The position numbers and the translations under genes were made by a program. Shown here piece after piece: positions 10,481 to 62,400 of a DNA stretch of 64,000 nucleotides. The notes beneath the pieces are model-generated. The model was not told the DNA's origin. It saw nothing but the letters and a program-made list of their open reading frames with translations, and made no database searches. The stretch is from Branchiostoma floridae (taxonomy: Eukaryota > Chordata > Leptocardii > Amphioxiformes > Branchiostomatidae): contig NC_049995.1 of NCBI RefSeq assembly GCF_000003815.2, positions 5,010,183 to 5,074,182 of the forward strand. The letters are read 5' to 3'. Each line of letters begins with the position of its first letter. The stretch's first letter is position 1.

Positions 10481-13281
10481 ATGGGGACATCAGGCAAACT
10501 TCACAACAGTCTGATGGAGATACTGGTGGTGGTGGGGATGGACCAGCACACAGGACTGGTGCCTGATAACTTACCTGTACAGGTAAGGTAACACCTGTAT
10601 ACAACTGCAAACACCTGACACCTGTCAGTGGTAGGATTGAACCAACACACAAGACTAGTTCCTAAAAACCAGGGTTGAACAAGTTTTCTAAAATCCACTT
10701 GTCCTATCGGGCAAGCACATAAAAAATGTACTTGCCCGAACCAATTTTTCACTTGCCCAAAATTCAAATGTCACTGTTACTAGTATATGCATTTTCACTT
10801 CCAGCAATGGAATTCTCTGTAGACAATTGCTTGATGTCATGACTGTAAAAAGTAAAAAGTATATCAAAATTGCACTAAGGCCACACCAATCTAATTTCTT
10901 GGTTCACGGATTTTTTCATAAAAAATATGGAGCGAGAGGGCGAAATAAAAATAAAAATAAAAATTGTAAAATGGTTGGGGTAAAGGTAACGGCTAATCCA
11001 AAACATAAAGAAAAAAAAGTTTTCAGCTTGAAAAAAGTACAAAAACACTATTTTTGTACAGTAACAGCACCTGTACCCACACTTTAAGGAGCTTATAATA
11101 TAAAGGCCAATTTGCTACACCAGAAAGTTGGTGAATGGTTTCATTAATGGTGAAAATTTGCTGAGTGGTAATTTTTATTTTTATTTTTTTTCCCAAAAAA
11201 TAGGAGCGAGCGAATCCGTGAACCAAGAAATTAAATCGGTGTGGCCTAAAATCAATGGAAAAATCTTACTTGCCCGATCAGACAAGTGGGGTAGGACATG
11301 CACTTGCCCGAACAGCACTTTCACTTGCCCGGGACAATATGGCTAGTGGACTTGTTTATCCCTGAAAACTTACCTGTACCGGTAGGTTACACTTGTACAC
11401 ACCTGTATGTAACATGCCAAACCTCATACGAATTCGACAAACGGAAGATAGAGATATATGTGCGAACACTCAACACAAAAACTATTCACAAAACTCTGTT
11501 GCTGGAGGTTACCCTCCAGTCACAGAGTAATAAAACAGACAAACGAACCCGTCAGTAGTAGAGGTAAACCAAATAACAGGATAACTTACCTGTACAAAAT
11601 GTAGATCGAAGGTAACACCTGGACACACCCATAGCTGTACATACCTGTAGAGGTAAGCACCTGTATGTAACGCCTGGCATTGATAGGGTTTAACCAGCAT
11701 ACAGGACTTTCATTTTCATGCACAGTGTACATTTATGTTCCACATGTACATGGGTACCTAATTATTTACACACTTCTACCTGGCAGTGCATACATTCATT
11801 TGTACTAGTAGCAGTGGGAGATTGTTGGTTTGTACAGACTGTGTACATTTTAATTGCTAACCTTTGAAAAGTGCCTGCTAATCCTATCCTAAAGACTTGA
11901 ATAATTGCACACATTGTTATAATAAGAAATGTTTTAAAAAATTACATCAATATTGAGTTATGACCCTCAATATCTTTTCCAGTCATCAGAGAAACTGCCA
12001 GGAACCTTGCCACTCTTTACGACAGCATTTGAACCCCAAGTGTTGGCCGCCTGCGCACACGAAGTCGCCAACTTCCCGAACTCATCCTCCATCTTCGACT
12101 CCATGGCTTCGTATTCCACCTCCACGTGGTCCTCAACAATCCCCCCCTCCCCGGCCAGGGGGGTGTCCAGCAGTATACCCCCCTCCTCAGCCAAGGGGGG
12201 CAAAACCAGGAGGAGTCAGTCGCTACGGAGACTCACCCCCACAGGGAAACACTCGGTTGCACTTCCTGTGGGGTCAGATGTCATTTCCTCCCTACCTCCA
12301 CTCTGTCTACCTGGTAAGGGTGCATCGCATGATGTACTTCTGATTTATGTAATGCTAGTTCACCTTTATCTGTGGGGTAACCTATATCCATTGTTGTTCA
12401 AATCAGGGTATCAAGCCAACAGGTGGTAGTTTTTAATTGCAATATCCTGAAAATATTGCAATTTGAAACTAATGTCCGTCGACATATTATCCCAAAATAC
12501 CCTGTTTTCAAAAGCAACGGATATAGGTTACACAATGGATAGAGGTGCACTAGCGTAAATTTGATAGTTGACCGAGTAGCCAAGGTAGCGGACATAAGAT
12601 CTACAGGCTCATAGGTTCAATTCCTAGCATTCCTGGCTAGGTGTGTCCTTTCTCCACTACTAGGTGTAAAAATGACTTCAGTTTGGGTGGTAAAAGGCAA
12701 TGGAAGGAGAGGGATGGGCTCTGCCTCCCAATACCATGCCCCAGACACAGTGGATAACAATACATACATACTCAAAATGGCTATGGGGCTAACTTGAATT
12801 TACCTTTAATTGACACTTTTTATAGAAAATCTTACGAAAGTCCTCATTTTTTGCATACAACTAAGTGCTTTACACAGCCAACGTTTCGCAATGGGAATTC
12901 TCTAGATCTATCACATTCCACTGAGTGGCACTGACTTGTTTTACTGTGCACTGTAGCTAGGTGTCGCTGCTGCATTGTGTAGTGTGACACCCAAATGTCG
13001 CTTAGTAAAAATACTTATTTGTGTGTAAAGATTGTTTTTATCCAGTTACTTACTAATGTTTTAATTCTGTTCAGATTATTGTCTGTAATTGAATTGTATG
13101 TCTCCTCTACATCTGTCAGACTGTATAATCTCAGCCCTGTCTCTATTTGAATACAGGAAATGCGTATGTGTACAAAGACAGACCTAAGGACCACGTACAC
13201 TACCTAGTACTGACGGACATTTCTGGTGCCCACTCGTATGCCACTGTCTACACTTTCTACAGGAAATTTCTTGCCAGTCAG
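10481..13281 (+). CDS. DENND3: DENND3 exons: N-terminus and uDENN domain
   Basis: Exons 10481-10582, 11983-12313 and 13157-13281 encode about residues 1-186. A short hydrophobic N-terminal helix is followed by a Ser/Pro-rich stretch (about residues 70-130), then the uDENN core read from [19 protein letters not shown] through [11 protein letters not shown]. The Ser/Pro-rich linker is poorly conserved in DENN proteins, so its exact exon limits rest on splice sites and frame. Confidence 0.85.
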
Positions 13282-59400: not shown

Positions 59401-62400
59401 ATTTATGATTATATTGTCGTATTGTGTAAGTTCATCAGGTTTTCTATTCATTGGAGAAGGGATAAAATGCTTCTTAGGCAAACTGGGAAGTTATGGCTTA
59501 AGTTAAATGTAAGAGCAAAGATGACCCAATTGGGCCGCACTGCACAGTCAGCAATAAAAAAAAAAAATTTCACTTCATATCAAGCAATGCTCTTTGAGTT
59601 TGAGATTATAATTAGAAGAACAAAAGTCAACTTGGATCATTTTGTTCTATCTTATTCACATTTGTGTTTCATGGATTCAGCAAGAAACAAGATAAGGAGA
59701 TCAGCAAGTAATATAACACTATGTAAAGTATATGAAACCAAACTGGGATGTATTCCACCACCCCCTCCAGGTCGAGTGGCGCGAGCCGGCAGGTCAGGTA
59801 CAGCGTACTCCCTGGTGGCCCCAGATGAGACCCCCCTCATGTTAGACCTGCACCTGTTCCTGGGGAGGGCAGTCAAGGTCGCCGGCAAGGACAAGTCTTC
59901 AGAAGGTATGATATATGTTATTTATGTCATACCTGGGCCGCGATAACGTTCGATATGCGTGTTCCGGACCAGGTGGTAATTTTCCGTATCATAATGGTTT
60001 ATTTCTTATCCAACTGCACGATACAGGTAGCAGGGTCAGTAAGACCCTGAATTGTGCTGCCGTGTTACATTTAAAAAAGATACGGGAACAATTTTTTAAA
60101 AATACTATATACACAGTTAAGAATTACATTGCTGAACCGAATTACCTTTAACATTATATATAAAAACAGTTTAACACTTATCTAACACGGATATTGCACA
60201 TGATTTCATAAAAACAAAGTACGCCGGTAAGTGGTCTTTAGGTAGCTGTGTCATGACGTCATTAGAGGACATTTTCGTTTAATAGTCTTACAATGTACGG
60301 GATGGTGCTTTTTTTGAATCTTTCAGTTCTGGTTTTTATCACATCAAGTTCGTTGGATTGTCTAGTGCGTCGGGTGCTGATCTGCCCTCGGAGAGGGGGG
60401 AGTAGGCTTCTGAAGGACGTGCAACTCAGCAGCTTCCTCCCGAAGCGGAGACACAAGTGTTCGCGTCGACTCCCCAGTGTCGGGAGACCTAGCTGTTCGC
60501 AGGCTTCAGCGTAGTTGGTGTACCCCTTCCCCATGATGATTCTGCAGGCCCTCTTTTGTATGGTTTCGAGCTGCCATGACTGTTTGTTTGTTAGTCCAGG
60601 ACTCCAAACCGGGGCTGCATATTCCAGTACTGGCCTCACATACGAAGTATACACCGTAACCAGGTCTGCGGTAGGCAGGTTGAACTTTCTCAAGCGCCTT
60701 AGTATGTAGAGACGCTGGCTGCCTTGTTTGGAGCTGGTATCACACAGGCTTCAAACATGTGAACAAAGAAATATAGAATAGTCTAAGACCCTCTGAAACG
60801 CTATTTCGGTAATTTTTGCTGGTGAACTCAGCTTGGTTCAATGGCATCTGTGCTGAATTTCTGGAGATCTTTGCAAAATTTTGTTTATTATCTTAACGAT
60901 TTTTGTCCGGAATGGGCAAAATTTTTGTCCGTCCCCAGCTGTCAAAGGACAGAAGGACGGATGCTGGCTAGAACTGTGCTCCTCAAACATTTTTACACCA
61001 GGGTGGAGTGAGGAAAGTCATGTAAAGTGACAAGGGCACAAGATCAGTAGCATGACAGGAGTTGTCAGTCTTTTTGTTGGTCATTAATAGAAAGAATTTC
61101 TGTTCCAGACTGGGATGGTTTGTACGGCAAGGTCCCACAGTCCATCATAGATGATGAGGATGCCAACATCCGGGTGTACCAGGAGAACAATCTAGAGCTG
61201 GGGAAACTGAAGCATGTTTTGGTTGGGCAAAAATGTACAATAAAGGTCTTCATTCATTTATAATAGAAAGAATCTGTGTTCCAGACTGGGATGGTTTGTA
61301 CGGCAAGGTCCCACAGTCCATCATAGATGATGAGGACGCCAACATCCGGGTGTACCTGTAGAAGAATCTGGAGCTGGGAAACCTGAAACATGTTTTGATT
61401 GGGCAAAAATGTACAGTAAAGGTCTTCATTCATTTTTAATAGAAAGAATCTGTGTTCCAGACTGGGATGGTTTGTACGGCAAGGTCCCACAGTCCATCAT
61501 AGATGATGAGGATGCCAACATCCGGGTGTACCAGGAGAACAATCTGGAGCTGGGGAACCTGAAGCGCGTGTCGGAGCGGGGGTACAGCGCCTACCTCAAG
61601 TCACGGTCAGCTCCGTCACACGAGTCCGTCAAACGGATGAAGGGAATGGACACGGCACAGATGGGCTTTCATCCTCTACTGGGTAATATGATACAGTCCA
61701 TTGATTGCACAACAGTTACTATATATACAACTTACAAGGCACAGGTTATTAACAACTACAATCTATCTATACTGTTGTGCTAAGATTTCTAGTATTCCAA
61801 CATCATTACTCAATACAACACATTTCACATTGTATGACATTGTTTTTCTTTGGTATAGAACACACCAGTATTTATATTGGCCTAGCTAGTTACCGCAACA
61901 CCCATGCTTTTATAATGGGATTGTGCATTTCACATTGTATGACATTGTTTTTCTTTGGTATAGCATACATCGGTATTTCTATTGGCCTAGCTAGTTACCG
62001 CAACACCCATGCTTTTGCTGTGATGCCCCTATTATTCTCATGCAATTTTGTAAGATCTTTTCGTTTCCACAGTTGCAGACTGCAGTGAAGTTGAGGATAA
62101 GCTGGCAGAGTTTGTGGATGGGGTACGGAACTACAAACCCAACAGTGTGAGTTGTCATGTTTTTATCAAAATTTCCTATGATAACATGTGGAAATGTAAC
62201 ACAATCATGTTTATTTTAGAAAAATCTGTACCGTGTTTCTGTGTTGAAACAGTAACTTTCATCACTTGCAGTACCTCTATTGACTGCTAGGTGATGCACT
62301 TAAATGAAACATGGTGAACATTAACTCCTCAACTTGTGTTTTACCATAGTTGTGTGCAGGCACAACATTTAAGTTTATCAGAATCTTTTTTTATGGACAA

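Follow-up and report, generated by a model that had tools for sequence, protein, structure and literature searches.

Are exon edges in lancelet genes copied because the duplication process favors splice borders, or because selection tolerates copies there? The question is raised by a 64,000-nt window of Branchiostoma floridae DNA (contig NC_049995.1, positions 5,010,183 to 5,074,182), in which short blocks crossing exon–intron borders recur in tandem in two neighboring genes, DENND3 and DDX54.

Splice borders lying within local repeats

The first finding of this study is that exon edges have been copied repeatedly. A preliminary description, made from the sequence, had claimed this for at least six places in the two genes; we find seven, with 7 of the 95 splice borders in our gene models lying inside a repeat copy: donor 10582, acceptor 15197, donor 17932, and acceptor 41298 in DENND3, and donor 54419, acceptor 55392, and acceptor 61461 in DDX54. 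The further claim that donors are affected as well as acceptors is borne out (3 donors and 4 acceptors), and at all seven borders the copied block takes the border into the adjacent intron. Self-BLAST gave 45 local direct-repeat pairs no more than 1.5 kb apart; Markov shuffling of the window, done three times, left 0, 1, and 0 pairs. TRF reported arrays of 34 bp × 9.1 (41005–41313), 157 bp × 2.8 (14855–15297), and 176 bp × 2.7 (61085–61563). A search with border-centered 60-bp probes returned the same seven borders at P < 1e-5, with P > 0.03 for 87 of the 95 and 3e-4 for the RITA1 acceptor at 51525; the latter, considered as an eighth place, matches on its intron side alone and was left out of the count. 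The arrays at 39443–39796 and 61821–62016 and the pair at 51637–51854 cross no border.

The exon models behind these counts were predicted from codon usage and splice signals by a small exon finder and then curated by hand, yielding 52 exons. Doubtful predicted exons were discarded by hand (e.g., 16349–16480, 16890–16955, 18011–18099, 19056–19191, 22234–22303, 27051–27232, 35186–35223, and 37243–37368), and in some cases the starts and short exons chosen by the finder were overruled manually, including the starts at 55392 and 61461, which were later backed by uninterrupted frames and an alignment to human DDX54. The DENND3 model has 28 exons and runs to the stop codon, while the DDX54 model has 14 and ends at the edge of the modeled region; neither contains an internal stop. 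DENND3 was identified by a DENN domain above cut-off (dDENN and uDENN scored below their own), a WD40 match, and similarity to 6b3y, a solved DENND3 fragment; DDX54 was identified by its best solved relative, human DDX54 (8fkt), with 519 of 522 given residues aligned. The RITA and USPL1 peptidase families are matched by other genes in the window. RITA1, in which exon 53059–53200 is a putative non-coding exon with an arbitrary outer end, stands head to head with DDX54 (49726–53525), and we take the two to be neighbors in human too. A rhodopsin-type GPCR-like single-exon gene (family assigned by eye) lies within a DENND3 intron on the opposite strand (22053–23258, minus strand).

The four DENND3 arrays are all on the plus strand. 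The coding part of exon 1 (10481–10582 in the gene model) is followed by the donor GT at 10583, from which a decayed array of donor-crossing copies in intron 1 descends; that array was delimited by repeat searches and donor scores (10583–11720, outer limits approximate). Its copies lie at 10628–10663, 11361–11405, and 11580–11627, with ~11640–11720 added by eye, and it is split at ~10685–11350 by other repeat-bearing sequence. The acceptor-crossing array at 14822–15293 (TRF and self-BLAST) has three copies, whose exon starts at 14882, 15039, and, for the true exon, 15197 are 157 and 158 bp apart. In the segment 17887–17957, exon 17777–17932 ends at its true donor, whose GT is at 17933; the segment also contains the left half of another donor copy. 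Inside this second copy sits an inserted foldback element of ~1.2 kb (17958–19186) with outer arms of 322 nt (99% complementary), inner arms of 206 nt (100%), and TTTAG at both ends; because the foldback lies within this second copy, the array is the older of the two. Further donor copies follow at 19187–19612, with GT at 19192, 19229, 19285, 19432, and 19582 and degenerate copies at 19524 and 19601, and part of them recur with a 147-bp period. The fourth array (41005–41313) presents nine acceptors in 34-bp steps, the last of which begins exon 41298–41425, and its copies are 98–100% alike. Units 2 and 5 share one variant, so that a three-unit block has probably been duplicated, and such a recurrence would be expected from block-wise unequal exchange.

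The three DDX54 arrays are also on the plus strand. At 54411–54754, a donor-crossing duplication has two copies 166 bp apart, with the true GT at 54420 and the copy GT at 54586. The exon at 55392–55577 has its true acceptor block at 55341–55401, as supported by the human DDX54 alignment, and an extra copy of that block at 55068–55134, whose exon start is at 55125; these copies are 267 bp apart and diverged in the middle. Both the 54 kb and the 55 kb cases have a single extra copy including only about 10 exonic bases. The acceptor-crossing array at 61085–61563 has 2.7 copies of 176 bp, ~94% alike; the true exon start is at 61461 and those of the extra copies are at 61109 and 61285. The outermost copies at all three borders align with human DDX54 without exon-sized insertions; the alignment is gapless at 54 and 55 kb, and next to the 61 kb border it has small gaps of 2 and 1 residues in the human direction. 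The unit lengths previously given, 34 bp in nine copies up to about 157 and 176 bp in three copies each, agree with those measured here (34 bp × 9, 157/158 bp × 3, and 176 bp × 2.7).

Other repeated elements occur in the window. Inverted copies at 31381–31940 and 41714–42265, which are 78% alike, represent an element of ~550 bp with inverted-repeat ends of ~48 bp that looks like a MITE. Dispersed repeats in opposite orientation (44412–44681 with 58562–58815, and 12646–12807 with 58824–58991) are possibly SINE-like. Two plus-strand copies of the SNORA20 snoRNA lie in DDX54 introns, one at 59160–59293 (61.9 bits, above the Rfam gathering score) and one at 63015–63148 (49.1 bits, E 4e-7, below it).

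State of the extra copies

The preliminary description held that the true exon is always the outermost functional copy and that the extras are dead. The first statement is correct inasmuch as the outermost copies give open frames, but it is a geometric consequence of copying into the intron rather than a finding: the constrained copy is outermost because no other copy is continuous with the remainder of the exon, and for the same reason it would be the one that is translated. The second statement is less secure. Splice sites were scored with a generic matrix, with the range set by the real sites of DENND3 and DDX54, and all 21 intact extra sites scored fall within that range, 17 of them scoring at least as high as their own true site (the four below it are two at 15 kb and two at exon 1). 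Three further copies are altered: 11598 has lost its GT, while 19524 and 19601 retain theirs in changed surroundings. If used, every one of the 21 sites (two at 15 kb, eight at 41 kb, two at 61 kb, one at 55 kb, two at exon 1, one at 54 kb, and five at 17.9 kb) leads to a premature stop, a result usually to be expected anyway from reading through intron. These stops agree with the claim that the extras are dead, but most splice signals are intact, and sequence by itself therefore does not establish it.

Across the 31 codons compared in the 15 kb array, the true copy alone has 5 synonymous changes and 1 nonsynonymous change (P = 0.007 versus neutrality), and the changes private to the two extras are 1:1 and 3:2, with one ambiguous site. 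For the 61 kb array (33 codons), the counts are 0:0 in the true copy and 1:1 and 2:3 in the extras, the last of which contains an internal stop. These changes, small in number and drawn from three unrootable sequences, fit one constrained copy accompanied by unconstrained extras.

The intact signals could also mean that selection has kept the extra sites as decoys or spares that tune splicing, which we regard as highly improbable. Besides the scores of the 21 sites, this explanation can draw on the 17.9 kb array, in which the donor core varies at 8 of 63 positions versus 140 of 287 in the flanks. However, the contrast is circular because the copies were chosen and aligned by their core, and the 21 sites were themselves picked for intact signals. 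The same contrast is weak in the exon 1 donor array (12/27 versus 74/123, P = 0.10); the other arrays tried gave 1/14 versus 14/86, 0/7 versus 20/43, and 0/14 versus 3/86. When whole units are aligned, the border window forms no consistent peak: windows that match or exceed its conservation make up a fraction of 0.68, 0.34, 0.12, 0.47, 0.11, and 0.10 in six comparisons covering five arrays. With a circular contrast at 17.9 kb and no consistent peak at the level of the unit, we rejected selection on the extra sites.

Border bias or position-blind duplication

A process biased to exon borders had been suggested from the density of these arrays. Our analysis does not establish this, since the outcome depends on the null chosen. 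The 45 repeat pairs were grouped by hand into 20 clusters, with unit lengths also set by hand; 7 clusters touch a border and 13 do not. Random placement of whole spans predicts 6.53 border-touching clusters (P = 0.50), and variants of this null predict 7.10 for the 19 in-gene clusters (P = 0.62) and 3.70 when exactly one border must be touched (P = 0.06). Random placement of the collapsed unit, which is the null closer to the duplication event, predicts 3.12 (P = 0.023), or 2.76 with exactly one border (P = 0.013) and 3.20 with tolerated placements only (P = 0.028). Leaving out six clusters judged transposon-like or low-complexity, a post hoc choice, sets 7 of 14 against 1.84 expected (P = 0.001), and the subsets tried under the unit null, with 7/14, 6/11, and 4/8 clusters at a border, give P values of 0.001, 0.003, and 0.026.

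The 60-bp probes offer a second comparison. A nearby copy was found for 7 of 95 borders (crossing them), for 42 of 285 points in introns or intergenic DNA, and for 8 of the 95 points placed inside exons. Of these eight, four fall in the USPL1 repeats and four in the exons 10481–10582 and 61461–61682. Sixteen of the 42 intron or intergenic matches lie in extra copies of the border arrays themselves, which leaves 26/269; counting each intron repeat once reduces this to 13/269, and removing the listed transposon-like stretches to 7/235. Set against these three backgrounds, the 7/95 borders give odds ratios of 0.74, 1.57, and 2.59 (Fisher P = 0.68, 0.43, and 0.13), with no significant excess.

Duplication that is itself biased to splice borders, for example where structures formed during transcription near splice sites provoke breaks or template switching, is favored by the unit null and by the fact that two of the three arrays at least 94% alike (41, 61.1, and 61.8 kb) cross borders. 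However, neither the whole-span null nor the probes favor it, and border repeats should remain detectable for longer because one copy is constrained and exon copies should decay more slowly, which would keep old border repeats in view. We consider this explanation unlikely. Equally doubtful is what it would entail, namely a lineage in which about 1 in 14 splice sites (7/95 here) has been copied, mostly intact, by a border-favoring process, with spare sites and raw material for new introns as the outcome. Since the span, unit, and probe tests disagree, we do not claim a border bias; a modest border excess is possible, and any verdict on enrichment will differ according to whether the unit or the array is treated as the target and must allow for exon copies decaying more slowly.

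The most parsimonious account is that tandem duplication is frequent and position-blind and that selection spares the copies that are spliced out. With a probability of about 0.78, we interpret the seven arrays as mirages of the amphioxus type, i.e., local tandem duplications indifferent to position, whose extras are spliced out and whose harmless copies escape selection. The repeats, the borders they cross, the intact signals, the stops on misuse, and the unconstrained changes in some extras (small numbers) are observed directly. As for mechanism, short local duplications, arising perhaps by replication slippage or unequal exchange, would have taken in a splice border by chance. Extra copies would then stay in the intron and leave with it because, under exon definition, the spliceosome would pair the site nearest the other end of the real exon. 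Selection would eliminate duplications that place out-of-frame sequence in exons, so that border-crossing and purely intronic ones remain, and these may subsequently decay, take insertions, or turn over as minisatellites.

Selection tolerating duplication at borders had been proposed as the alternative to bias, and it fits better, although the evidence is thin. The only repeat cluster within an exon is a degenerate in-frame repeat with a 105-bp step in the long exon of USPL1 (5719–6176, minus-strand gene), with offsets of 105, 204, and 324 bp that are all multiples of three, whereas only 2 of the 7 border offsets (34, 157, 158, 166, 176, 267, and 147 bp) are divisible by three. This frame-keeping, in a single cluster, is expected where duplication is blind to position and harmful copies are lost.

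Mirages and related repeats

The preliminary description was right that such arrays had been reported at the amphioxus Adh locus as mirages. As described in the accessible passages of two papers, mirages in Adh3, the globin genes BflGb6 and BflGb9, and PGBD5 are minisatellite-like tandem blocks across donors or acceptors, with units of 10–72, 60, 108, and 150–160 bp, many with intact AG/GT (PMC3087553, PMC3902484); the PGBD5 splice sites carry the 60- and 108-bp repeats, and Adh and troponin C are mentioned in that context (PMC3902484). The DENND3 and DDX54 arrays resemble these published cases in their anatomy, unit size, types of border, and retention of AG/GT, and are further mirages, a phenomenon already described in lancelets; the gene content of the window fits a chordate. 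The unit spans the exon–intron border, here at 7 of 95 borders, two of them with decayed and interrupted arrays; 5′ and 3′ exon borders are both affected; and many extras keep AG/GT, as 21 copies do here. Unit lengths of 34, 147, 157/158, 166, and 176 bp compare well with the values in those passages, 166 and 176 bp being slightly over. Amphioxus mirages yield normal mRNA despite the copies, and the window has, as judged from its sequence, an uninterrupted frame through the outermost copies. Copy number in mirages varies between haplotypes and somatically; here a single haplotype is represented, in which the variant shared by units 2 and 5 is suggestive. The difference from the cases in the published passages is that seven occur in two neighboring genes and that two of the arrays are decayed and interrupted by insertions.

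The least probable explanation is that assembly errors or the joining of haplotypes produced some of the arrays. The 34-bp (98–100% alike) and 176-bp (~94%) arrays are similar enough for this to happen, and in the accessible text a globin mirage is said to have been misassembled in the draft and to vary between haplotypes (PMC3087553), PGBD5 copy numbers vary between assemblies (PMC3902484), and the amphioxus huntingtin paper mentions tandem repeats and assembly errors in scaffolds (PMC2206037). However, the copies of the other five arrays are diverged, two arrays are split by other sequence, and the PGBD5 authors report, in the passages available, that newer data confirmed their original sequence (PMC3902484).

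Two other systems, each from the accessible part of one paper, bear comparison. In human segmental duplicates, internal tandem repeats (minisatellite arrays) occur at exon–intron boundaries and can be spliced out; unlike here, recent primate paralogs were compared, and changes in coding sequence and splicing patterns were reported (PMC2812944). In potato RdRp, tandem duplication is presented as a source of introns and a new intron is reported (PMC4974935), whereas here existing borders have been copied. No genome-wide count of mirages was among the matches listed in the open-access literature, which is weak evidence of absence.

If the 7 of 95 borders with arrays are typical, mirages would be common in lancelet genes instead of an oddity confined to a handful of them. 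Each array also offers a natural test of the choice that the spliceosome makes among near-identical sites. Finally, such arrays may be an early stage of intron gain, as proposed by the globin authors in the accessible part of their paper (PMC3087553).
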